Program-made: the position numbers and the translations under genes
The notes under the pieces: model-generated
What the model saw: only the letters and a program-made list of their open reading frames with translations
The model's database searches: none
What the model was told of the DNA's origin: nothing
From: a virus
DNA length: 37,737 nucleotides
Strand: one strand, 5' to 3'
IMG/VR virus record: IMGVR_UViG_3300015265_000209
Location: 1 to 37,737 of that record
Part shown: in pieces, positions 11,184-28,221 of the stretch
How the letters are laid out: every line of letters starts with the position of its first letter
Numbering within the stretch: the stretch's first letter is position 1

Positions 11184-11435
11184 CCAGCCGTCCAACCTCG
11201 CCATTTTTAGGTTGGACGGCTGGAACCCGCATGAACAGCGGCCCCGCCAACCTCCCAACCTCGCCAACCGAAACGCGCCTGCACACGCACGCACGTGCGC
11301 ACGTATACGTGCGTGTGCGGGGTTGCTTTTGGCTTTTGTCCTTCCAGTAGAACCTAGAAATAGGTTGGGTAGGTTGGGAGGTTGGCAAAGCAAGCATCCA
11401 TGCGGGTTTGCGCCGTCCAACCTTTTGCCCAACCT
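11184..11435. repeat. Heptamer repeats and inverted repeats, candidate replication origin
   Basis: This gene-poor segment holds six CCAACCT/G copies on the plus strand (11192, 11247, 11255, 11264, 11417, 11429) and four AGGTTGG copies (11209, 11362, 11371, 11379). The first pair forms a 15-bp perfect inverted repeat (11184-11198 with 11209-11223, 10-nt loop). The next clusters form a 24-bp inverted repeat with two mismatches (11246-11269 with 11363-11386). Inside that lies another hairpin (11281-11291 with 11308-11318). The position after the replication gene suggests an origin; an RNA element is an alternative. The whole interval 11073-11468 contains no gene I can support. Confidence 0.6.
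11280..11319. other. 40-nt alternating purine-pyrimidine tract (Z-DNA-prone, hairpin-forming)
   Basis: Every step in this stretch alternates pyrimidine and purine, mainly CA/TG and CG steps, and includes the palindrome ACGTGCGCACGT (11293-11304). It is the apex of the larger inverted repeat. Such tracts favour left-handed or cruciform DNA under supercoiling. Confidence 0.6.
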
Positions 11436-11468
11436 TTTCGAGGTGGGACCAAATTGCAGGAGATCGAC

Positions 11469-11792
11469 ATGAGCAGCGGAAGTATGCGGGAACAGATGCC
11501 TCAGGTAGCGGCGATCATCGATGCGTTCCGCGATGCGTTTGGGGCAGAAGTGGTGGATGCGGCGATACGGCGTGGCATACGCGGCGGGCAAGGTTTCCAC
11601 GCGACCGAGAACGGGCATGAGGTGGGCACGCCGATCATCCGGGGCGTGCGGATAGGGATGGATGCGCGAGGCAACAGGATCAACCTGGATGACCCGCAGG
11701 CGAATATCCCGGAGCCGTATCTGCGCCGACAGGGCGGGATGGCGTGGCAGGCAGCATTGGATCAGCAGGAATTGGACAACAAAAAGGGGTAA
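11469..11792 (+). CDS. Hypothetical phage protein, 107 aa
   Basis: The product (MSSGSMREQMPQVAAIIDAF..., then GFHATENGHEVGTP) resembles small conserved phage proteins found between replication and late genes, but I know no function. It is soluble. The frame opens at 11382 inside the repeat region, yet a strong AGGAGA ribosome binding site precedes the ATG at 11469, so that start is preferred. It ends 4 bp before the start of the next gene and shares its transcript. Confidence 0.65.
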   Translation: MSSGSMREQMPQVAAIIDAFRDAFGAEVVDAAIRRGIRGGQGFHATENGHEVGTPIIRGVRIGMDARGNRINLDDPQANIPEPYLRRQGGMAWQAALDQQELDNKKG

Positions 11793-11796
11793 GGCG

Positions 11797-12744
11797 ATGG
11801 AAGCAGGTGACGAGGCAGTATTTGAAAGTGTGGGGCAGGCGGTGCATGTGTCATTCCTGATCATGGCGCAGGAAGCGACGCAAGATGCGCCTTTGCGCAA
11901 GGCGCTGATGCGGGCAATGGAAACCATCCAGTTGTCAGCTAGCCAGCAACACTGGCTGGAAGCGCTGCGCGGCGTTGGTGGTGGCACAGTCAATTTTGAA
12001 GGCTTGGACAACAACGAAGTTCGAGCGCAGTGCGCCTTGGTTACCCAAGCGATTAAATCACGGCTTCCCAAGCCAGAGATGTGGGTATTGCAGGCGAAAT
12101 TTGGTGAGACGGAATTTGAGGATGTAGTGGACTCGGTGGATGCTTTTCACAAGCTCGCAGAGGCCCTGGACTTAGCGGAGGCAGCTGTACGAAAAAAGCG
12201 GGTGGATCTCGATAAGGCTCAGGTAGTGTATGCCAAATGGTCTGGCACCATCACCAGGGACGATGCGGATCGGCGTAAGCGAGGCGATGAGCACCGCGCC
12301 GTGCTGGAGTTGCGCGAACAGGTGGAGCAGCTGGAATCGGACGCGAGGCTGATACAAATTGCGATGGGGCAGACTCGGGCGTGCAAGCTGGTCGATAACG
12401 GCCGTCGCGTTCAAGTGGGCCAGGCCCCACGCCGGCGTTATGTGTTCTCTGCCGAGAGGATCGCGGCGATACAGGGATTGTCCGAATGGTTCCGGCCGCT
12501 GCTCCCGACAGTGCCGGCGCTGGCCATCGATTGCATGCTGGGCCGCGTGTTTGCCAACCATAAAAAAATCGACATCTCTTTCAGGGACTTGGCGGAGTCG
12601 TTTGGCGGTAGCCATGTGAAGTATTACCGGGCCTCGAAAAAGATGATGAGCCACGTGAGAACGCTTGAGCAGAACGCGATGGCGCGTCTTGAGCCAATAT
12701 TTGCGGCACAGGGTGTGACAACGATATTTGAAGAAAGTGTTTGA
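11797..12744 (+). CDS. Candidate late-gene regulator (Q-position protein)
   Basis: This 315-aa soluble protein begins MEAGDEAVFESVGQAVHVSF, then has NNEVRAQCALVTQAIKSRLPKPE. A charged coiled-coil-like middle (about residues 135-200) follows. The C-terminus ISFRDLAESFGGSHVKYYRA looks like a helix-turn-helix. I recall similar N- and C-termini in uncharacterised proteins of other betaproteobacterial phages, usually without the long middle insert. It has no sequence signature of lambda Q that I can see. The evidence for a Q-like role is positional: it is the last early gene. A strong promoter overlaps its stop codon and a terminator follows shortly after. The ATG at 11797 has a GGGGTAAGG upstream; the longer frame from 11662 is rejected. 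Confidence 0.55.
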   Translation: MEAGDEAVFESVGQAVHVSFLIMAQEATQDAPLRKALMRAMETIQLSASQQHWLEALRGVGGGTVNFEGLDNNEVRAQCALVTQAIKSRLPKPEMWVLQAKFGETEFEDVVDSVDAFHKLAEALDLAEAAVRKKRVDLDKAQVVYAKWSGTITRDDADRRKRGDEHRAVLELREQVEQLESDARLIQIAMGQTRACKLVDNGRRVQVGQAPRRRYVFSAERIAAIQGLSEWFRPLLPTVPALAIDCMLGRVFANHKKIDISFRDLAESFGGSHVKYYRASKKMMSHVRTLEQNAMARLEPIFAAQGVTTIFEESV

Positions 12745-12770
12745 CGGAGGTGTAACAAGCCCTGTATATT
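12741..12770 (+). promoter_or_regulatory. Candidate late promoter (pR'-like)
   Basis: TTGACG (12741-12746), an 18-bp spacer and TATATT (12765-12770) form a strong sigma-70 promoter overlapping the stop of the 315-aa gene. The start is expected at about 12777. The terminator about 65 nt further on suggests a short leader RNA unless antitermination occurs. Confidence 0.65.
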
Positions 12771-12839
12771 TCGGTCATTCTCGGAGTAACTGTGTCCAGG
12801 GTAATGTCTGTCGCCTACTCTGAGGGGCAAGAACAGATC

Positions 12840-12875
12840 AACCTCGCCAGGCATCAAGCCGCGCGGGGTTTTTTT
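12840..12875 (+). terminator. Leader terminator (tR'-like)
   Basis: AACCTCGC (12840-12847) pairs with GCGGGGTT (12863-12870), including one T-G wobble, and the hairpin runs into seven T residues. It would stop transcripts from the promoter at 12741. A 27-codon frame (12804-12887) crosses it, but its start has no proper ribosome binding site. Confidence 0.75.
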
Positions 12876-12891
12876 ACGCCTGTCTAAAGAT

Positions 12892-12926
12892 CCTACCAGT
12901 GGCGCAATGGTAGGCCGCTGCGCCAC
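12892..12926 (+). other. Two mutually exclusive hairpins in the late leader
   Basis: CCTACCA (12892-12898) can pair with TGGTAGG (12908-12914), with GTGGCGCAA as the loop. Alternatively, GTGGCGCA (12899-12906) pairs with TGCGCCAC (12919-12926). The two cannot form together, a switch-like arrangement just after the leader terminator. The rest of 12876-13010 shows no gene. Confidence 0.4.
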
Positions 12927-13013
12927 CGTCTGCAAGAACATGTTGGACGGAGCGAGAGAGAAAGTTGTGGAGCCTCATCGCGTATAGATGAATTATTTCT
13001 GCTCAGGCTAGTC

Positions 13014-13051
13014 CCCTTGGTATAGGATCGAGAATCCGAAAAAACCAAGGG
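13014..13051 (+). promoter_or_regulatory. Hairpin overlapping the ribosome binding site of the moron-like gene
   Basis: CCCTTGGT (13014-13021) pairs with ACCAAGGG (13044-13051), enclosing a smaller GGAT/ATCC stem. The 3' strand includes the first part of the AAGGGAGAAGG ribosome binding site of the gene starting at 13059, so folding could limit its translation. Confidence 0.45.
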
Positions 13052-13058
13052 AGAAGGT

Positions 13059-13514
13059 ATGAATGTCGTACTTGGACTTATCAAGAAGTCGATAGGTGAT
13101 CTAGCAGCCGGAACCATCGCATTAGTTCAGATCGACCGTAAATTGGTGCACGGCTTTACTTTTACCTACGACAGGGGAGAGCTAAGCGTTCTCGTCTTAG
13201 AGGGCCCCCGGGCTGGCGAGACGATGTATCCAGATTCTGATGTTGCCTTTGTAAGCCCGACAGAAGCCAGTATGCACCCCTCCATTGATCCTAGTGACCT
13301 CGCAATGGAATGTCCCGAGACGAAGCTACCTCTCTATATAACACCAAGTGGCGCAACGTACTTCGTTGTCACGCAGCACGGGAACAGGTACGGTATCGCT
13401 CTGGAAAATGGAGTTTTTGGCCCCGTGCGCGCTCATAACGCTTTGTTTGTTTCGAAGTGGGAAGTGAGAGTTGACGGTGAAGAGATTGCCAGATTGCGCA
13501 GCCCATCGAACTAA
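13059..13514 (+). CDS. Moron-like hypothetical protein, 151 aa
   Basis: I do not recognise the family. The product is beta-rich and soluble, with no signal peptide (MNVVLGLIKKSIGDLAAGTIALVQ at the start, later YITPSGATYFVVTQHGNRYGIA and WEVRVDGEEIARL). This suggests one or two small beta-barrel domains, perhaps SH3-like. It lies alone between the late-leader terminator and another intrinsic terminator, is more A+T-rich than neighbouring structural genes, and has a strong but partly paired ribosome binding site. This isolated, terminator-flanked layout is typical of morons, genes that phages gain and express separately in the lysogen. I could not identify a convincing private promoter. Confidence 0.6.
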   Translation: MNVVLGLIKKSIGDLAAGTIALVQIDRKLVHGFTFTYDRGELSVLVLEGPRAGETMYPDSDVAFVSPTEASMHPSIDPSDLAMECPETKLPLYITPSGATYFVVTQHGNRYGIALENGVFGPVRAHNALFVSKWEVRVDGEEIARLRSPSN

Positions 13515-13538: not shown

Positions 13539-13564
13539 GCCCGCTTGCACGCGGGCTTTTTTTT
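13539..13564 (+). terminator. Intrinsic terminator after the moron-like gene
   Basis: GCCCGC, a six-base loop and GCGGGC are followed by eight T residues, 25 bp after the stop codon at 13514. Confidence 0.85.
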
Positions 13565-13661: not shown

Positions 13662-13683
13662 CCCGCTTAGCGCGGGATTTTTT
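13662..13683 (+). terminator. Short terminator-like hairpin before the gpZ-like gene
   Basis: CCCGC, a five-base loop and GCGGG are followed by A and six T residues, ending 27 bp before the ATG at 13711. The stem is short, so it is probably a weak terminator. Confidence 0.5.
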
Positions 13684-13710
13684 ATTTGTACTGCCAGTAT
13701 TGGAGCGCGC

Positions 13711-14364
13711 ATGAGCACCGTACAGCTACAGGGATATCGCGAGCTAGTGGCTCGTATGGGGGCAGCTGGGCGCCGGCACATGCCGTTTGCCGTTGCCAAG
13801 GCACTGACACAGACTGCTTGGCAAACATCAGCTGCCGAGACTGCGCACATCAAGCAGGTGTTCGACAAGCCGACACCGTTTACTCAGCGCGCTGTAGGTG
13901 TGACGCCGGCCACCAAGGCCAAGCTGCAGGCGCGGATATTCGTCAAGGATGTGCAGGCCAAGTACCTGGCGGTTGAAGCCATCGGTGGCCGGCGCGCCTT
14001 CAAGACTTTTGAGGAGCGGTTTGCCAGCGGCGGTACGCCGCAGTTCGCACTACCTGGGCGCGGCGTGGGCCTGAACCAATACGGCAACATCACCAAGGCG
14101 AAGATCAAGAAGATCGCCGCCGACATCGAGACCTTCAACAGCAACAAGCGCTTCTTCAAGGGCGTGCCGAAGGGCGGCGGCCTGCCAATGGGCATCTACG
14201 CGCGGGCCAACAACAACAAACACATCACGACGCTGATCCGCTTCTCGACCGAAGCGACGTACAAGAAGCGCTTCGAGTTTAGCGCGGTGGCGAACGAGAC
14301 CATCACGAGCAACTTCGAAGCGAACCTGGTCAGTGCATGGGAAGCAGCGTTACGCAGCGGTTGA
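13711..14364 (+). CDS. Phage minor tail/neck-like protein (possible gpZ relative)
   Basis: The 217-aa protein begins with a helical region (YRELVARMGAAGRRHMPFAV) and continues KALTQTAWQTSAAETAHIKQ, VFDKPTPFTQRAVGVTPATK. The pattern ALTxTA...RPTPFTxxxxxVxPATK...V.KD resembles minor tail protein Z and related tail-completion proteins. The C-terminus is a basic beta-strand region. A GGAG ribosome binding site precedes the ATG. It lies on the opposite side of the cos-like region from the tail genes. The slot for gpZ between the head-tail joining and tail-terminator genes is empty, supporting displacement. The name is tentative; the gene itself is secure. Confidence 0.6.
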   Translation: MSTVQLQGYRELVARMGAAGRRHMPFAVAKALTQTAWQTSAAETAHIKQVFDKPTPFTQRAVGVTPATKAKLQARIFVKDVQAKYLAVEAIGGRRAFKTFEERFASGGTPQFALPGRGVGLNQYGNITKAKIKKIAADIETFNSNKRFFKGVPKGGGLPMGIYARANNNKHITTLIRFSTEATYKKRFEFSAVANETITSNFEANLVSAWEAALRSG

Positions 14365-14588: not shown

Positions 14589-15173
14589 ATGGCATTGATG
14601 GGATATCGCGAATACTCGCGGCACGCTGGCGTGACACTGCGCGCAGTGCAGAAGGCCATCGAAGCCGGCCACATCCTGGTCCAGGACGGCAAGAAAATCG
14701 ATTCCATGCAGGCCGACCGCGACTGGCGCAACAGCGCCGACGTGCTGCGACCTGTGCTCAGCGTAACACCGACCGAAAAACGCACGGTTTCCTCCGCTGC
14801 GCTTGCTGGCGAGGATTACGACGAATCTGACGCCCGAGGGGACGGGGACAGCGAACCCGCCGAGGCGGATGGGTCAACCACGGAGTACCGGACCCACCGC
14901 GCCGCGCGGGAAAAGTTCAGCGCGCTCAAGCAGGAGCTGGAGTACAAGCAGCTGGCCGGAGAGTTGATCCTGGTAGGTGAGGCGAAGCGGATCGCGTATA
15001 CGACGTTCCGCAATATCCGCGACTCGGTGCTCAACGTACCGGCGCGGTTGAAGGATCAGCTGGCAGCGGTAAGTGACGCGCACCAGTGCGAACGGATTAT
15101 GGAGGAAGCGCTTGCTGCCGCGCTGGCCGGCATTGATGTCACCAAGCTGTTGCAGGACCAAGAGGATGAATAA
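14589..15173 (+). CDS. Terminase small subunit (Nu1-like)
   Basis: This protein recognises the packaging site and recruits the large terminase. The N-terminus (MGYREYSRHAGVTLRAVQKA, IEAGHI) is a winged-helix DNA-binding domain like that of Nu1/DUF1441 proteins. An acidic linker (about residues 75-100) and a helical C-terminal assembly domain (REKFSALKQELEYKQLAGEL, NIRDSVLNVPARL) follow. At 194 aa it is similar to lambda Nu1 (181 aa). It directly abuts the large subunit gene: the TAA at 15171-15173 touches the next ATG. It follows the GTAGTCA repeats it may bind. Confidence 0.8.
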   Translation: MALMGYREYSRHAGVTLRAVQKAIEAGHILVQDGKKIDSMQADRDWRNSADVLRPVLSVTPTEKRTVSSAALAGEDYDESDARGDGDSEPAEADGSTTEYRTHRAAREKFSALKQELEYKQLAGELILVGEAKRIAYTTFRNIRDSVLNVPARLKDQLAAVSDAHQCERIMEEALAAALAGIDVTKLLQDQEDE

Positions 15174-17171
15174 ATGGGTGCAGTCGATGAATTCATCCGG
15201 TCGCTCAGTGAAGCGATAAAGCCGGACGACCGCATCCCCATTGCGCGGTGGGCCGAACGGTATAGGGTGCTGCCGCCGGATACGCCAGAACCTGGTCCCT
15301 GGCGCAATAGCCGCACGCCCTACCTGGTCGGCATCATGGACGCGCTGTCACCCGACAGTCCGTACCGTGAGGTCTACCTGAAGAAGGGCCATCAGTTGGG
15401 CGGCTCTGCATTGGGCGAGAACTTCATCGGCCACGCCATCACCTCGGCAGCCGGCAACATCCTGGCCGTGTTCGCCACGGTGGAGGATGGCGAGAAATGG
15501 AACCTGTCGCGCTTCGAGCCGATGCGGCAATCGACGCCCGAGCTGCGGCGCCGAATCCGGGACAAAGAGGTCAAGGGTTCCGACAACACGCAGCGCCGGA
15601 AGAAATTCCCCGGCGGATTCATGCAGATCGTCGGCGCGAACAGGCCGGGTGGCCTGAAATCCTCGACCATGCGCTACGTGCTGCTCGAGGAGATGGACGA
15701 GTACCTGGGAGACATCGGGAAACAGGGCGCGCCGGAAACGCTGGCCAAGAACAGGACTAGCAACTTCGGCCGCAAGGCGCGCATCTTCGGCAACAGCACG
15801 CCGACCATCGTCGGCAGCTCGCCGATCGACCGCAATTACCAGCGCGGCGACCAGCAGAAGTACATGGTGGCGTGTCCGGACTGTGGCGAGCGTCAGTTCT
15901 TCAAATGGTCGCAGATGAAGTGGCCGGATGACGAGCCGGAGAAAGCGCGTTACGCATGTGAGCAATGCTCGGTGCTCAGCACGGAGGCCGAGTGGAAGAC
16001 GCTCGGCTACGAGGGCGCATATTGGATGCCTACCGTGAAGGGTGAGCCAGGCGTCGCCAGCTTCCATCTACCGTCGCTGTACGCGCCACTTGGCTGGCGC
16101 CCTTGGGTTGAGCTGGCGGCTGACTTTATTGCAGCAAAGCCTGATCCGATCGCGCTCAAGGCTTTCATCAACAACATGCTAGCTGAGTGCTGGGAAGATT
16201 TGAGCGGGCAGATCAAAGGTGCTGAGATCGCCAAGCGGCGCGAGGGCTGGAACCTGCGCACGATCCCGCAGGGCTGCCTGGCGCTGGTAATGTCGGTGGA
16301 CGTTCAAGGCAACCGTCTGGAATACAAAATCCTCGGCTTCGGCCGCAACAAGAAGCACTGGGTTATCGACTACAACATCATCGATGGTGACCCCGCCAAA
16401 GAGGAGGTTTGGACTCGGCTGACAGCGTTGCGTGAACGTCCGCTGGTGAACTCTTTCGGTGTCTCGATGCGTGTGCAGACGTGTGCAATCGACTCCGGTG
16501 GACATCACACGCATGAGGTGTACCACTACGCCAGGCTGTATCGCCATGCGGGCGTGTTTGCGGTCAAGGGCGCGTCGTCGGCTGGCAAGCCGGTAATCGG
16601 TCGGCCGGTGCCGATGGACGTCAACCACAAGGGACGCGTTATCAAAGGCGGCGTGCAGCTTTGGCACGTCGGCACCGATACGGCCAAGTCGCTGCTGTTC
16701 AACTACATCGCCTCAGACGAGGAGTCGATACCGGAGGACCGCTTTATCCGATTCCCTGCAGGTCTGACCGACGATTACTTCGAGCAGCTGACGGCGGAGG
16801 TGTTCGACGCGGCGAAGTCGCAGTACCGCAAGCTGCCGGGGCGCCGCAACGAGGTCATCGATTTGTTCGTCTATGCGTTCGCTGCGGCGTATCACCCACT
16901 GCTGCGGCTGGACGTCATGCGTGACGCTGACTGGGCGCAGCTGGAGGCAATGATCGAACCGGTCAACGGCGACCTGTTTAGACAGCCGCTACCAGCGCCG
17001 GACGAGCAAGAGCCGAACAGTGCTATGCAGGATCACCAGGTGGCCGTCGCGGCGACGGCAGAAAATGAAGCACCGCCCGCGCCAGTCGTTACGGCCAGCG
17101 CGCCGGAAACACAACCCGAGCAACAGCCCGACAGCGATTGGCTGTCAGGCACTGATAACTGGCTGGATTAA
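15174..17171 (+). CDS. Terminase large subunit (GpA family)
   Basis: This is the motor and nuclease of DNA packaging, 665 aa (lambda gpA is 641). The N-terminal ATPase has a GpA-type P-loop region KKGHQLGGSALGE (70-82) and a Walker B-like YVLLEEMDEY (168-177). A zinc-binding module follows with C234, C237, C262 and C265. The nuclease part contains SVDVQGNRLEYKILGFG and later acidic positions. The C-terminal tail is rich in Pro, Ala and Gln and probably binds the portal. GpA together with a Nu1-type small subunit points to cos packaging with cohesive ends. A 14/16 match to the GTGCAGACGTCTGCAC palindrome lies at 16473-16488 within the gene. Confidence 0.95.
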   Translation: MGAVDEFIRSLSEAIKPDDRIPIARWAERYRVLPPDTPEPGPWRNSRTPYLVGIMDALSPDSPYREVYLKKGHQLGGSALGENFIGHAITSAAGNILAVFATVEDGEKWNLSRFEPMRQSTPELRRRIRDKEVKGSDNTQRRKKFPGGFMQIVGANRPGGLKSSTMRYVLLEEMDEYLGDIGKQGAPETLAKNRTSNFGRKARIFGNSTPTIVGSSPIDRNYQRGDQQKYMVACPDCGERQFFKWSQMKWPDDEPEKARYACEQCSVLSTEAEWKTLGYEGAYWMPTVKGEPGVASFHLPSLYAPLGWRPWVELAADFIAAKPDPIALKAFINNMLAECWEDLSGQIKGAEIAKRREGWNLRTIPQGCLALVMSVDVQGNRLEYKILGFGRNKKHWVIDYNIIDGDPAKEEVWTRLTALRERPLVNSFGVSMRVQTCAIDSGGHHTHEVYHYARLYRHAGVFAVKGASSAGKPVIGRPVPMDVNHKGRVIKGGVQLWHVGTDTAKSLLFNYIASDEESIPEDRFIRFPAGLTDDYFEQLTAEVFDAAKSQYRKLPGRRNEVIDLFVYAFAAAYHPLLRLDVMRDADWAQLEAMIEPVNGDLFRQPLPAPDEQEPNSAMQDHQVAVAATAENEAPPAPVVTASAPETQPEQQPDSDWLSGTDNWLD

Positions 17172-17396: not shown

Positions 17397-18848
17397 ATGA
17401 ACTTGATCGATGAACTGGTCAGCGTATTCAACCCGATGGCCGGCGTGCGGCGCGCCCAGGCGCGCATGGCGCTCGAGCACGCGCGCGGCTACGATGCAGC
17501 GAAGATAGGACGCCGCACTGCCGGCTGGGTAGCGGGTGGTGGTAGCGCCAACGCGGAGATCGGGCCGGCCTTGACACGCGTGCGCAATCGCTGCCGCGAC
17601 GTGGTGCGCAACAATGAATATGCCGGACGTGCCATCGACAGCCTGGTGGCCAATACCGTCGGTGACGGCATCACCGCCAAGGCCCCTGACCAGGAGCTGT
17701 GGAACGACTGGTGCGAATACTGCGACGCTGATGGCCAGCTCGACTTTGCCGGCCTGACCGAGCTGGCCCATCGCACGAGGCGCGAGAGTGGTGAGGTGCT
17801 GATCAGGTTCCGGCCCCGTCTCCCCGAGGATGGCTTGCGCGTGCCGCTGCAGTTGCAGGTGCTGGAACCGGACCATATCGACAACACGAAGAACGGGCCG
17901 CTGGCGAATGGCAACTTCGCGATCACGGGCATCGAGTTCAACTTGGTGGGCCAGCGCGTGGCCTACTGGTTGTATCCGGTTCATCCCGGCGAAGTCGCCA
18001 CATTCCGGCTCAATTCGCTTGAGAGCAAGCGCGTGCCGGCATCGGAGATCCTGCACTACTACCGCAAGCGCCGCCCGACTCAGGTGCGCGGTATGCCGGA
18101 GCTGGCGGTGTCGTTGCTGCGCCTGCGCGACCTGGCCGACTACGAGCAGGCCGAGCTGGTGCGCAAAAAGATCGAGGCCTGCTTCGTCGCCTTCGTGCGC
18201 ACCGACGACGCCAGCGCGCGCTTGGGTGCTGCAACCGCGCCAGTCAAGGGGCCAGTGCAGGAGAAGGTGGCGCCGGGGATGATCAAGTACCTCTCCAATG
18301 CCGAGGGCGTGGACTTCGGCAATCCGTCATCGAGCGGCGGCTACGGTGAGTACACCACCACGCAGCTGCAGGCCATCGCGGCCGGCGCCGGCGTGATGGT
18401 GTCGCAGATGACCGGCGACCTCTCGGGCTTCAATTACAGCAGCTACCGCGCCGGCCTGGTGGAGTTCCGCCAGCTGATCAAGGGAGAGCAGTGGCTGGCG
18501 TTGAAACCGATGGTGTTGGCGCCAATCGCGCGGCGCTTCCAGCAGGCGGCGCTGTTGGCCGGAGCGACCAAGAATCCGGTGCGGCCGTTCACCTGGAACA
18601 TGCCCAAGCTGCAATGGGTCGATCCGCTCAAGGACGTAATGGCGGAGAAAGAGGCAATTCGCGGCGGTTTAAAAACTCTCTCTGCGTCCATCCGCGAAAG
18701 CGGCGACGATCCCGAGGTGGTGTTCAAAGAGCGTTCAGCAGAGACCGAAAAGTTGCGCAGCCTTGGGATTGTCGTGGATTCGGACGCCGCCGTGTCGGCC
18801 AAGCTGCTCGACGCTGCAACCGTGGCGCAAATTTTCGGCACCGAGTAA
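17397..18848 (+). CDS. Portal protein, lambda GpB family
   Basis: The 483-aa product would form the dodecameric portal ring through which DNA enters the head. Recognisable lambda-portal features are RVRNRCRDVVRNNEYAGRAI, SGEVLIRFRP, EILHYYRKRRPTQVRGMPEL and MTGDLSGFNYSSYRAGLVEF, followed by a helical C-terminus. Lambda gpB is 533 aa, so the size is near normal. A C-terminal scaffold/protease partner follows as a separate gene. Shortly after the stop comes a strong intrinsic terminator, so the next gene probably depends on antitermination or on partial read-through. Confidence 0.93.
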   Translation: MNLIDELVSVFNPMAGVRRAQARMALEHARGYDAAKIGRRTAGWVAGGGSANAEIGPALTRVRNRCRDVVRNNEYAGRAIDSLVANTVGDGITAKAPDQELWNDWCEYCDADGQLDFAGLTELAHRTRRESGEVLIRFRPRLPEDGLRVPLQLQVLEPDHIDNTKNGPLANGNFAITGIEFNLVGQRVAYWLYPVHPGEVATFRLNSLESKRVPASEILHYYRKRRPTQVRGMPELAVSLLRLRDLADYEQAELVRKKIEACFVAFVRTDDASARLGAATAPVKGPVQEKVAPGMIKYLSNAEGVDFGNPSSSGGYGEYTTTQLQAIAAGAGVMVSQMTGDLSGFNYSSYRAGLVEFRQLIKGEQWLALKPMVLAPIARRFQQAALLAGATKNPVRPFTWNMPKLQWVDPLKDVMAEKEAIRGGLKTLSASIRESGDDPEVVFKERSAETEKLRSLGIVVDSDAAVSAKLLDAATVAQIFGTE

Positions 18849-25635: not shown

Positions 25636-28221
25636 ATGTCTACATTGGGATCGCTCGTTGTTTTCCTCGAGGCGAACATTGCACGTTACCAGTCGGACAT
25701 GGAGCGGGCGGCGCAGGGAACTGAGTCAGCCATGCGGCGGGTGAAGAGCGCCGCCGGTTTTGTTTCCGGCGCTCTGGCGGTGGTCGGGGTGGCGTTGACG
25801 GTCGATGCTCTGATCGGATCGGCGAACAAGGCCATCGACGCGCTGGCCGACCTCGATGACATGGCGCAGAAAACCGGCTCATCGGTGGAGAACCTGTCGC
25901 GGCTGGGCCAGCTGGCGTCCGCGACAGGTACCGACTTCGGCGGCATTGATAGTGCCTTGGTCAAGCTGTCCAAGGGGCTCGTCTCGGTAGACGACGAGGG
26001 CAGTAAGGTGCGCAAGGCGCTGACCGCCTTGGGAATGGAAACAAAGAATCTGAAAGACCAGGACCCATCCGAGACGTTCATCGAAATTGCCAAGCATCTC
26101 CAAGGGTACGAGGACGGCGCCGGTAAGGCGGCGTTGATGAATGACTTGCTCGGAAAGTCGGGTGCTGAGCTGTTGCCGTACATGAATGACGTCAACGACC
26201 ACCTGGGACGCTTTACCGGCGTCTCCGCCGAGGCTGCTGCCGCTGCTGCGAATTACCAGGATCAGCTGGGGTTCATACGCGTGAAATTCGAGGCGATGGT
26301 GGCGCAGATCGTCGGCGCCGGTTTGCCAGCTGCTACCGATCTGGTGGAGGCATTCGCTGACCTGACGACAGGCGCAGATGGCCTGGTGAAAGAGGACTTG
26401 TCCGGATGGTTCGATGATCTCTCTATCGGAATTGCGACGGCAGTCGATGTGTCGTTGCTGTACGTGCGCACGCTGCAAACGATCGGCAACAGCATCAAGG
26501 CGGTGTACGCCGATATCACGGTGGCCGGCAGCGCCGTCAAGAACTTCAACCCCTATAGTCTCGTTGCAAATGTTTTCAGCGGCGAGTCGTCCACCGCTCA
26601 ATTCCAGAAAGACCTTGCCGCGCGCGACGTAGCGGTAACCAATGCGAACCAGAAGCTCGCTGACCTGTGGAGCACGCCATGGGATTCGATGTCGCAGAAC
26701 GTGCGTAAGCGAGTTGATGCGCGGAATCAAAAAGATGGCACCGCGCCAGCCGACGATGGCGCAAAGCCCAAGAAGCCGCTCAAGTATGCCGGTGACAAGG
26801 AGGAAGACGCCAGTTCTGCAACGGCCAAGAAGCGGCTCGACATGCGCCTGGCCAGCCTCGAGGCCGGGCTGGCGAAAGAGCAGGGCGCGCTGGCGTTCGG
26901 GAACAAGTACATCGCTGAGCTGCGCAGCCAGGACCTGATCGACCTGGATGCCTATAACGATTACAGGCAAAAGGCCCTGGAGAGCGGACTGGCGATCACG
27001 CTGCAGGCCTACGACGACGGGATCGCCGCCCTGCAGGCGCACCAGGCCAAGGCGACCAAAGCGGCCGACCGCGATGCCGACCAGCAAGCGATCAGCAACC
27101 TGCAGGCGAAGAAGGCGAAGGCGCAGCAGGATGCTGACGAAGACAGCCTGACGCTGAAACTGGAGCTCAACCGCGCCCAAAGCGATTTAAACCGGGCCGT
27201 CGAGGACTGGAATCGGCAGCAGACGCAGTCGATCAGCCAGATGGCGTTCGAAAACGATCTGTATGGAAAGTCCGCCCTGGAGGTCGCCAAGCTCACGGCT
27301 GCGCGGCGCATCCAGCTTGATGTCGAGGAGCGCATCCGGCAGGCCAAAGAGAAGGGGCCCGTCAGTGACGAATCAGTGCAGAAATTCAGGCAGGACGGCG
27401 ACGACCAGACCAGGCAGGTGAATAAGGCCCTGACCAAGTCGTCGGCCCAGCAGATTGGCGACTCGCTGAAGAAACCTGAAGACGTGGAGCGTGAGCAGTA
27501 CGCCACTCGCCTCAAGGACCTGCAGGCGTTCCGCGATGCCGAGCTGGAGAACGCGATCGAGGGAAACCGGCTGATCGAGGAGGAAAACCAGCGGCACACC
27601 AACGCCATGATGGAAATGGAAACCTCGTATCAGTTGCAATCGCTGGGCGCCGCCGGCAATACGGCGGATCAGCTATACGGGATGATGCAGCAAGCGGGCA
27701 AGGAGCAAAGCGCGCTGGGCAAGGCAGCATTCCTGGCCAGCAAGGCGATCGCGGTGGCCGAGATCCTGCTCAACACCGAGGTGGCCGCCGCCAAGGCTGG
27801 CGCGCAGCTGGGTATCTACGGTATTCCGATGGCAACAATGATCCGTGTAACCGGCTATGCCAGCGCCGGCATGGTGGCCGGCATGGCGATCGCCGGCATG
27901 CGTGAGAAGGGCGGGCCGGTGTGGAGCGGCGGCGCGTTCATCGTGGGCGAGAAAGGCCCGGAGATTTTCCAGCCGACGTCGCACGGCACCATCATCCCGA
28001 ACAGCAAGTTGGGGGGAGGTGGCGGCGGCGACGTGAAGTGGACCGTTGTCAATACCGGAACGCCGCAGCGCATCGTGGAGCAGAAACGCATTTCGGATGA
28101 CGAGTGGGCGTTGATCGTCGAGGACGCAGTCTCGTCGGTGGCTGCGCAAATGGCCGATCCGAACAGCAAGACAAGTCGAGCGATGTCGCGTAATTTCAAT
28201 ACACCAAGGAGCCGTGGTTGA
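25636..28221 (+). CDS. Tape measure protein
   Basis: The 861-aa product sets tail length. The N-terminus resembles lambda-type tape measures (LVVFLEANIARYQSDMERAA, QGTESAMRRVKSAAGFVSGA), with a hydrophobic segment at about residues 39-60. A long charged coiled-coil centre follows (about 400-680; LQAKKAKAQQDADEDSLTLK). The Gly/Ala-rich hydrophobic end includes GMVAGMAIAGMREKGGPVWS, GGAFIVGEKGPEIFQP. At roughly 1.5 angstrom per residue, the family rule, the tail would be near 130 nm. The ribosome binding site AGGAT is moderate. Its stop overlaps the next ATG by one base. Confidence 0.93.
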   Translation: MSTLGSLVVFLEANIARYQSDMERAAQGTESAMRRVKSAAGFVSGALAVVGVALTVDALIGSANKAIDALADLDDMAQKTGSSVENLSRLGQLASATGTDFGGIDSALVKLSKGLVSVDDEGSKVRKALTALGMETKNLKDQDPSETFIEIAKHLQGYEDGAGKAALMNDLLGKSGAELLPYMNDVNDHLGRFTGVSAEAAAAAANYQDQLGFIRVKFEAMVAQIVGAGLPAATDLVEAFADLTTGADGLVKEDLSGWFDDLSIGIATAVDVSLLYVRTLQTIGNSIKAVYADITVAGSAVKNFNPYSLVANVFSGESSTAQFQKDLAARDVAVTNANQKLADLWSTPWDSMSQNVRKRVDARNQKDGTAPADDGAKPKKPLKYAGDKEEDASSATAKKRLDMRLASLEAGLAKEQGALAFGNKYIAELRSQDLIDLDAYNDYRQKALESGLAITLQAYDDGIAALQAHQAKATKAADRDADQQAISNLQAKKAKAQQDADEDSLTLKLELNRAQSDLNRAVEDWNRQQTQSISQMAFENDLYGKSALEVAKLTAARRIQLDVEERIRQAKEKGPVSDESVQKFRQDGDDQTRQVNKALTKSSAQQIGDSLKKPEDVEREQYATRLKDLQAFRDAELENAIEGNRLIEEENQRHTNAMMEMETSYQLQSLGAAGNTADQLYGMMQQAGKEQSALGKAAFLASKAIAVAEILLNTEVAAAKAGAQLGIYGIPMATMIRVTGYASAGMVAGMAIAGMREKGGPVWSGGAFIVGEKGPEIFQPTSHGTIIPNSKLGGGGGGDVKWTVVNTGTPQRIVEQKRISDDEWALIVEDAVSSVAAQMADPNSKTSRAMSRNFNTPRSRG

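Follow-up and report, generated by a model that had tools for sequence, protein, structure and literature searches.

The window, which is the whole 37,737-base IMG/VR virus record of the temperate phage analysed here, contains an open reading frame on the plus strand (11797-12744) for a 315-aa protein. This protein is very probably a phage processive antiterminator of the AlpA type (Q-like), and the approximately 135 bases past its gene would be the loading site. Comparison of sequences and models supports the homology and fold of the protein, the in-register cis elements, the co-variation between protein and DNA, and the late genes downstream; the start site, the pause, the loading and the read-through are what we infer. 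The preliminary description had proposed a protein at the Q position with the Q/pR'/tR' layout of phage lambda, and the position, promoter, leader and terminator were found as described. It had also proposed a new Q-type antiterminator. The antiterminator part is strengthened by a distant relative with the same layout, AlpA; the novelty has to be narrowed, since the protein is not an orphan type but appears to belong to a phage branch of the AlpA type.

Identity of the protein and its relatives

11797-12744, plus strand: predicted AlpA-type (Q-like) late antiterminator gene, long form, 315 aa
12127-12423, plus strand: coding region of the insert (about aa 111-209), a coiled-coil hairpin of two helices that stands on a beta-hairpin tip and is missing in the short forms
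12580-12636, plus strand: coding region of the helix-turn-helix (HTH, aa 262-280), in which R263 corresponds to R128 of AlpA, H273 to K138 and V274 to S139

An alternative longer frame opens at 11662; the start at 11797 was preferred because the starts of the relatives align with it and a purine-rich, ribosome-site-like stretch precedes it. Another frame (11382-11792), without Pfam or PHROG match, ends just upstream of the gene. The absence of a recognised Q signature, as noted earlier, was borne out: the 315-aa protein showed no Pfam match at E 0.1, no NCBIfam match and no match to Q proteins of the lambda, 82 or 21 type. Moreover, 13 family members searched against Pfam matched no Q family, even at E 10. 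Judged by sequence, the protein falls outside the Q families of lambda, 82 and 21. It matches PHROG 17923, which was also matched by three relatives, including short forms and the protein of Burkholderia phage BgManors32; the profile has a length of 215, lacks the insert and has no function assigned.

AlpA of Pseudomonas aeruginosa (PDB 7XYA and 7XYB) is described as a proven Q-like antiterminator (PMC7969949, PMC9371919), and it is active in E. coli as well (PMC7969949). It was the single significant match of the family profile among the PDB sequences. The chain 7xya_G was on top of all PDB chains with a profile from 13 sequences (E 1.3e-6), and reached E 5.4e-10 in hmmsearch with a 73-sequence profile, the next match being at 0.08. 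The hhalign comparison of the family with AlpA gave a probability of 97.2 over 172 columns of the 176-aa AlpA. Among phage records, the sole match was BgManors32 (two accessions of one phage), and a 118-residue piece of AlpA found no match there. The BFVD search returned two probability-1.00 matches with weak E-values and no named function. At least 4 of 399 genomes in the order of G001 have a match, with few candidates scored per genome. One genome (G251) has five intact, divergent family copies (L087, L090-L093); by eye, no promoter-terminator module adjoins the gene in its remote copies, and the downstream DNA differs among the copies.

Predicted structures

An AlphaFold prediction for the 315-aa protein (mean pLDDT 78.7) aligned with AlpA over 152 residues with Z 14.1, spanning residues 11-306 of the model. 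Foldseek gave a probability of 1.00 for this pair with an E-value of only 0.052, and the lower rows of the fold list were coiled-coil matches of the insert. For a short relative (pLDDT 81.9), the model matched AlpA with a Foldseek E-value of 4.4e-5 and with Z 15.4 over 156 of 158 residues. In these predictions the match takes in both the N-terminal ring segment and the C-terminal HTH, although parts of the ring region are modelled with low confidence in both cases. The comparison with Q proteins suggested earlier gave AlpA as the best match (Z 14-15); among the Q proteins named, 21Q (6p18_Q) came third in the ranking of the short form (Z 5.8, rmsd 8.7, 126 aligned residues, the next match at 4.7).

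The possible C-terminal helix-turn-helix of the preliminary description aligns with the HTH of AlpA. In AlpA, the HTH residues R128, K138, S139, T140 and H142 are described as contacting the DNA element (PMC9371919), and R263, the counterpart of R128, is nearly invariant across the family. The polymerase contacts of AlpA align as E53 with E74, M60 with L81, and R34 with M41, the last where the alignment is loose; for R34 and M60 there is no identity at the aligned family positions.

Promoter, octamer, predicted pause and terminator past the gene

12741-12746, plus strand: -35 element TTGACG, overlapping the stop codon TGA (12742-12744)
12751-12758, plus strand: putative loading element (Q/ABE-like) TGTAACAA, at -26 to -19
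12765-12770, plus strand: -10 element TATATT, separated from the -35 element by an 18-nt spacer
12776-12781, plus strand: -10-like hexamer CATTCT at -1 to +5, with A+1 and T+5, a predicted sigma-dependent pause element
12783-12794, plus strand: match to the elemental pause consensus, with a predicted pause end at +17 (12793)
about 12840-12875, plus strand: intrinsic terminator (tR'-like), a stem with an internal loop followed by seven T

The promoter reported to overlap the stop codon lies at 12741-12770 and has 10/12 matches; transcription would start near 12777. The octamer of the window is a variant of the family consensus TGTTMCAG. The elemental pause consensus is G-11 G-10 ... T-3 G-2 Y-1 G+1, and the lambda pause is at +16/+17. 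The window matches this consensus at 6/6 positions, and across the family the consensus peaks at +17 only (mean 4.2/6; the next offset reached 2.7). The terminator, expected about 65 nt past the start, was recovered from +64; it folds as a terminator and is conserved in relatives. A simple terminator scan missed it because of the internal loop in the stem. A long hairpin folds from the first 48 leader bases (12780-12824) and covers the predicted pause region.

The promoter by itself is at chance level (1 found, 1.5 expected in 3 kb), and when the DNA of the window was scanned for the promoter pattern, no second copy was found. The case that the module is above chance comes from its conservation in the family. 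The queries for the search of viral contigs were the 315-aa protein, an alignment of the family and alignments of three sub-families; two Massilia genome loci and BgManors32 were added. This gave 108 regions, window included, with sufficient DNA past the stop codon; L050, L055 and L077, at contig ends, are outside the count. A promoter with at least 8 matches was present in 105/108 regions and in 58/214 dinucleotide shuffles. With the hexamer (A+1/T+5) also required, the numbers were 99/108 and 3/214, and with a terminator of at most -10 kcal/mol within 130 bases as well, 99/108 and 2/214. Among the nine regions that failed the joint test, two (L064 and L069) keep the promoter and the terminator with the hexamer shifted by one base, one (L081) has a weak -35 element and promoter, and six failed outright (L073, L079, L080, L151, L168 and L176). 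A terminator follows in 77/77 tested leaders, with three promoterless regions left out.

The 108 regions hold near copies, including 17 of the BgManors32 type, and L006 and L012 resemble one prophage. A non-redundant set of 35 blocks with mutual identity below 85% showed the same picture. The mean information was 1.21 bits in the -35 box, 1.06 bits in the octamer and 1.55 bits in the -10 box, against 0.30 and 0.34 bits in the spacer flanking the octamer. Information was also concentrated at -6 to +18, where A+1 is present in 33/35 and T+5 in 34/35 blocks. Past +25 the leader fell to 0.46 bits, even though this part holds the terminator stem in many members, and both its sequence and its length vary within the family.

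Co-variation of the recognition helix and the octamer

The octamer, in the register of the AlpA binding element (ABE), is a candidate binding element for the HTH, as judged by its pairing with the recognition helix. Residue 273 aligns with K138 of AlpA. In 96 module rows, AlpA among them, a G stands at base -23 in 20/20 rows with K or R at residue 273 and in 0/76 of the others. The relatives with SKST-Y/F-HR (L072, L074-L076, L078) and those with SKSTYER (L197-L200) carry TGGGACAG, and AlpA (SKSTLHR) carries TGGGACGA; SKST is thus paired with GGGAC in AlpA, in the L072-L078 clade and in L197-L200. One relative, L066, has TGGGACAG together with PRMTFAR. Met, Val or Leu at residue 274 was found in 39/54 rows with A-22 and in 2/23 rows with C-22.

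The pattern had been spotted before it was tested. On the tree, 4/4 well-supported independent pairs were concordant for residue 273 (p 0.125); with just four such pairs, p 0.05 is out of reach. In the mutual-information z-scores, clade-specific residues rank as high as the recognition helix, and therefore the argument for co-variation leans not on z but on the raw value, on the contact in AlpA and on the independent pairs. The tree omits L055 and L073, and the count omits L011, in which the octamer is shifted by one. Alignment A2 omits L048, L050, L055, L073, L077, L079, L080 and L014 as well as repeats of one sequence.

Genome context

The left side of the window encodes an integrase, an S24/HTH repressor and a VapE-type primase; the right side is the late operon. 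Directly past the primase gene, a hairpin of 11 pairs in alternating ACGTGCG-like sequence (11290-11319) was scored as terminator-like.

13539-13564, plus strand: second intrinsic terminator
13662-13686, plus strand: third terminator-like site
14589-17171, plus strand: genes for the small and large terminase subunits, which open the late operon
later late genes: portal at 17397, head protein/protease at 18763, tape measure at 25636

A 151-aa frame (13059-13514) lies past the leader terminator and ahead of the late genes, with a strong terminator of its own (13539-13564). Searches of Pfam, NCBIfam and PHROG gave no match for this frame, which is possibly a late-added cargo gene. A 217-aa frame (13711-14364) matches phrog_1924, 'minor tail protein' (5.6e-51), yet it lies upstream of the terminase genes. 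A GpA-type terminase large subunit is downstream and on the same strand in 33/33 loci with a match, and was present in 30/60 loci with at least 4.5 kb, at identities from 27% to 88%. This spread of terminase type and identity indicates that the late genes change while the gene and its switch stay together.

The coiled-coil insert

The long coiled-coil insert described earlier appears in the model as two helices (residues 114-149 and 156-194, of 36 and 39 residues), at the place where the short-form model has a beta-hairpin from residues 106-111 and 114-119. The family includes short forms of about 215 aa, long forms of about 320 aa, and intermediates. The core tree requires six changes for the long form, at least three of them on supported branches, and the insert comes and goes within the family; gain and loss are indistinguishable on this tree. 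The window protein groups with the short forms L037-L047 (support 92/95, not starred), and several of these have the same leader as the window. An 18-nt spacer was found in 28/29 long forms and in 32/44 other forms, and no link between insert and promoter spacing was seen beyond possible clade effects. As a guess, the hairpin might be an accessory arm in contact with polymerase, with a Nus factor or with upstream DNA.

Comparison with known antitermination systems

The layout copies alpA/PalpB/tB of P. aeruginosa even more closely than that of lambda. Directly after alpA, PalpB has TTGACG, GGGACG, TATAAA and CACGAT, followed by a terminator hairpin, and its start is 69 nt past the alpA stop. 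GGGACG at -25 to -20 is described as the AlpA binding element, and CACGAT at -1 to +5 as required at PalpB (Wen et al. 2022, PMC9371919). The two systems appear to share the fold over nearly the whole of AlpA and the HTH, and they share a spacer element at the same distance from the -10 box, the hexamer at -1 to +5, the target promoter right behind the regulator gene and the intrinsic terminator downstream. G-25 and C-21 are common to the phage octamer and the ABE, and A-22 to many members. However, the octamer differs (TGTAACAA in the window), the phage proteins add the beta-hairpin and, in the long form, the coiled-coil hairpin, and the phage gene precedes terminase and head genes, whereas AlpA belongs to a chromosomal lysis cassette.

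The order of lambda (Q, promoter, short leader, terminator, late genes) and the element between -35 and -10 are also kept; the 315-aa protein, in contrast, lacks zinc-finger cysteines (only scattered Cys and no CxxC pair, read by eye) and a Pfam Q-family match. The job and loading scheme predicted here resemble those given for 21Q of phage 21 (PDB 6P18; PMC6606751). No sequence match of 21Q to the family was found, and 21Q is described with two direct repeats and two protomers (PMC6606751), whereas the family shows a single octamer. GafZ of the Caulobacter gene transfer agent, a proposed antiterminator with a putative element in the -35/-10 spacer (PMC11150451), is likened here by its description only.

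Proposed mechanism and alternative explanations

After induction, the early operon would make the 315-aa protein. Host RNA polymerase would initiate at the promoter over the stop codon, with sigma region 2 gripping the -10-like hexamer, and the pause sequence would hold the polymerase near +17. The departing polymerase could then not form terminator hairpins, and the modified enzyme would pass the leader terminator and the two further terminators into the late genes.

The protein might instead be an ordinary HTH activator or repressor that acts on initiation, the terminator being a plain attenuator. One of 13 members does match Sigma70_r4_2 (3.7e-6) through its C-terminal HTH, which thus resembles sigma region 4, and a binding site in the -35/-10 spacer would be in keeping with a repressor. 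However, the match to AlpA includes the N-terminal, ring-forming part; the conserved block to +18, with A+1/T+5 and the pause sequence, would be superfluous for control of initiation; and the terminator stands behind every tested leader. An initiation regulator is therefore improbable. Still less probable is that the promoter and terminator yield a short leader RNA with a job of its own while the protein acts elsewhere. The window leader does fold better than its shuffles (z -3.2), and the nearest relatives (L037-L043) keep most of its 5' hairpin; but the variable sequence and length after about +25, the retention of the promoter-proximal elements and of their match to the recognition helix, and the absence of an Rfam match in 12700-13100 argue against this.

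It is also conceivable, at the very lowest probability, that long forms have become another kind of regulator through the insert and have, for instance, lost antitermination. The insert lengthens the protein by about 100 aa and is conserved less well than the core (mean identity among long forms 37% vs 66%). Nevertheless, long and short forms carry the same module, and the core of the window protein matches AlpA along its full length in the model. An AlpA-type antiterminator with its loading site is thus the preferred reading.

Pena et al. 2021 proposed a prophage origin of the alp system (PMC7969949), and the phage family described here is a candidate for that origin. It may tentatively be suggested, as a reading somewhat less likely than its opposite, that the family is the phage source of AlpA. 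In that reading the antiterminator gene, promoter, loading site, pause and terminator would form a travelling cassette, the source of the self-lysis switch of P. aeruginosa, and the long form would be a Q protein with a coiled-coil arm to a further partner. Among open-licence papers, by titles and the starts of abstracts, we found no phage relatives of AlpA with the module and no description of a coiled-coil arm as part of a Q protein; nor was a statement that this family is the source of AlpA found in open-licence papers. The family makes the proposed prophage origin testable.

These results suggest a probable function for a phage protein family listed as unknown (PHROG 17923). The removable coiled-coil hairpin provides a natural experiment on the other contacts of Q proteins. 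With dozens of natural pairs of protein and site, the recognition code of an antiterminator becomes readable and testable. Phages of Massilia, Burkholderia and other hosts probably use AlpA-type antitermination to switch on their late genes.
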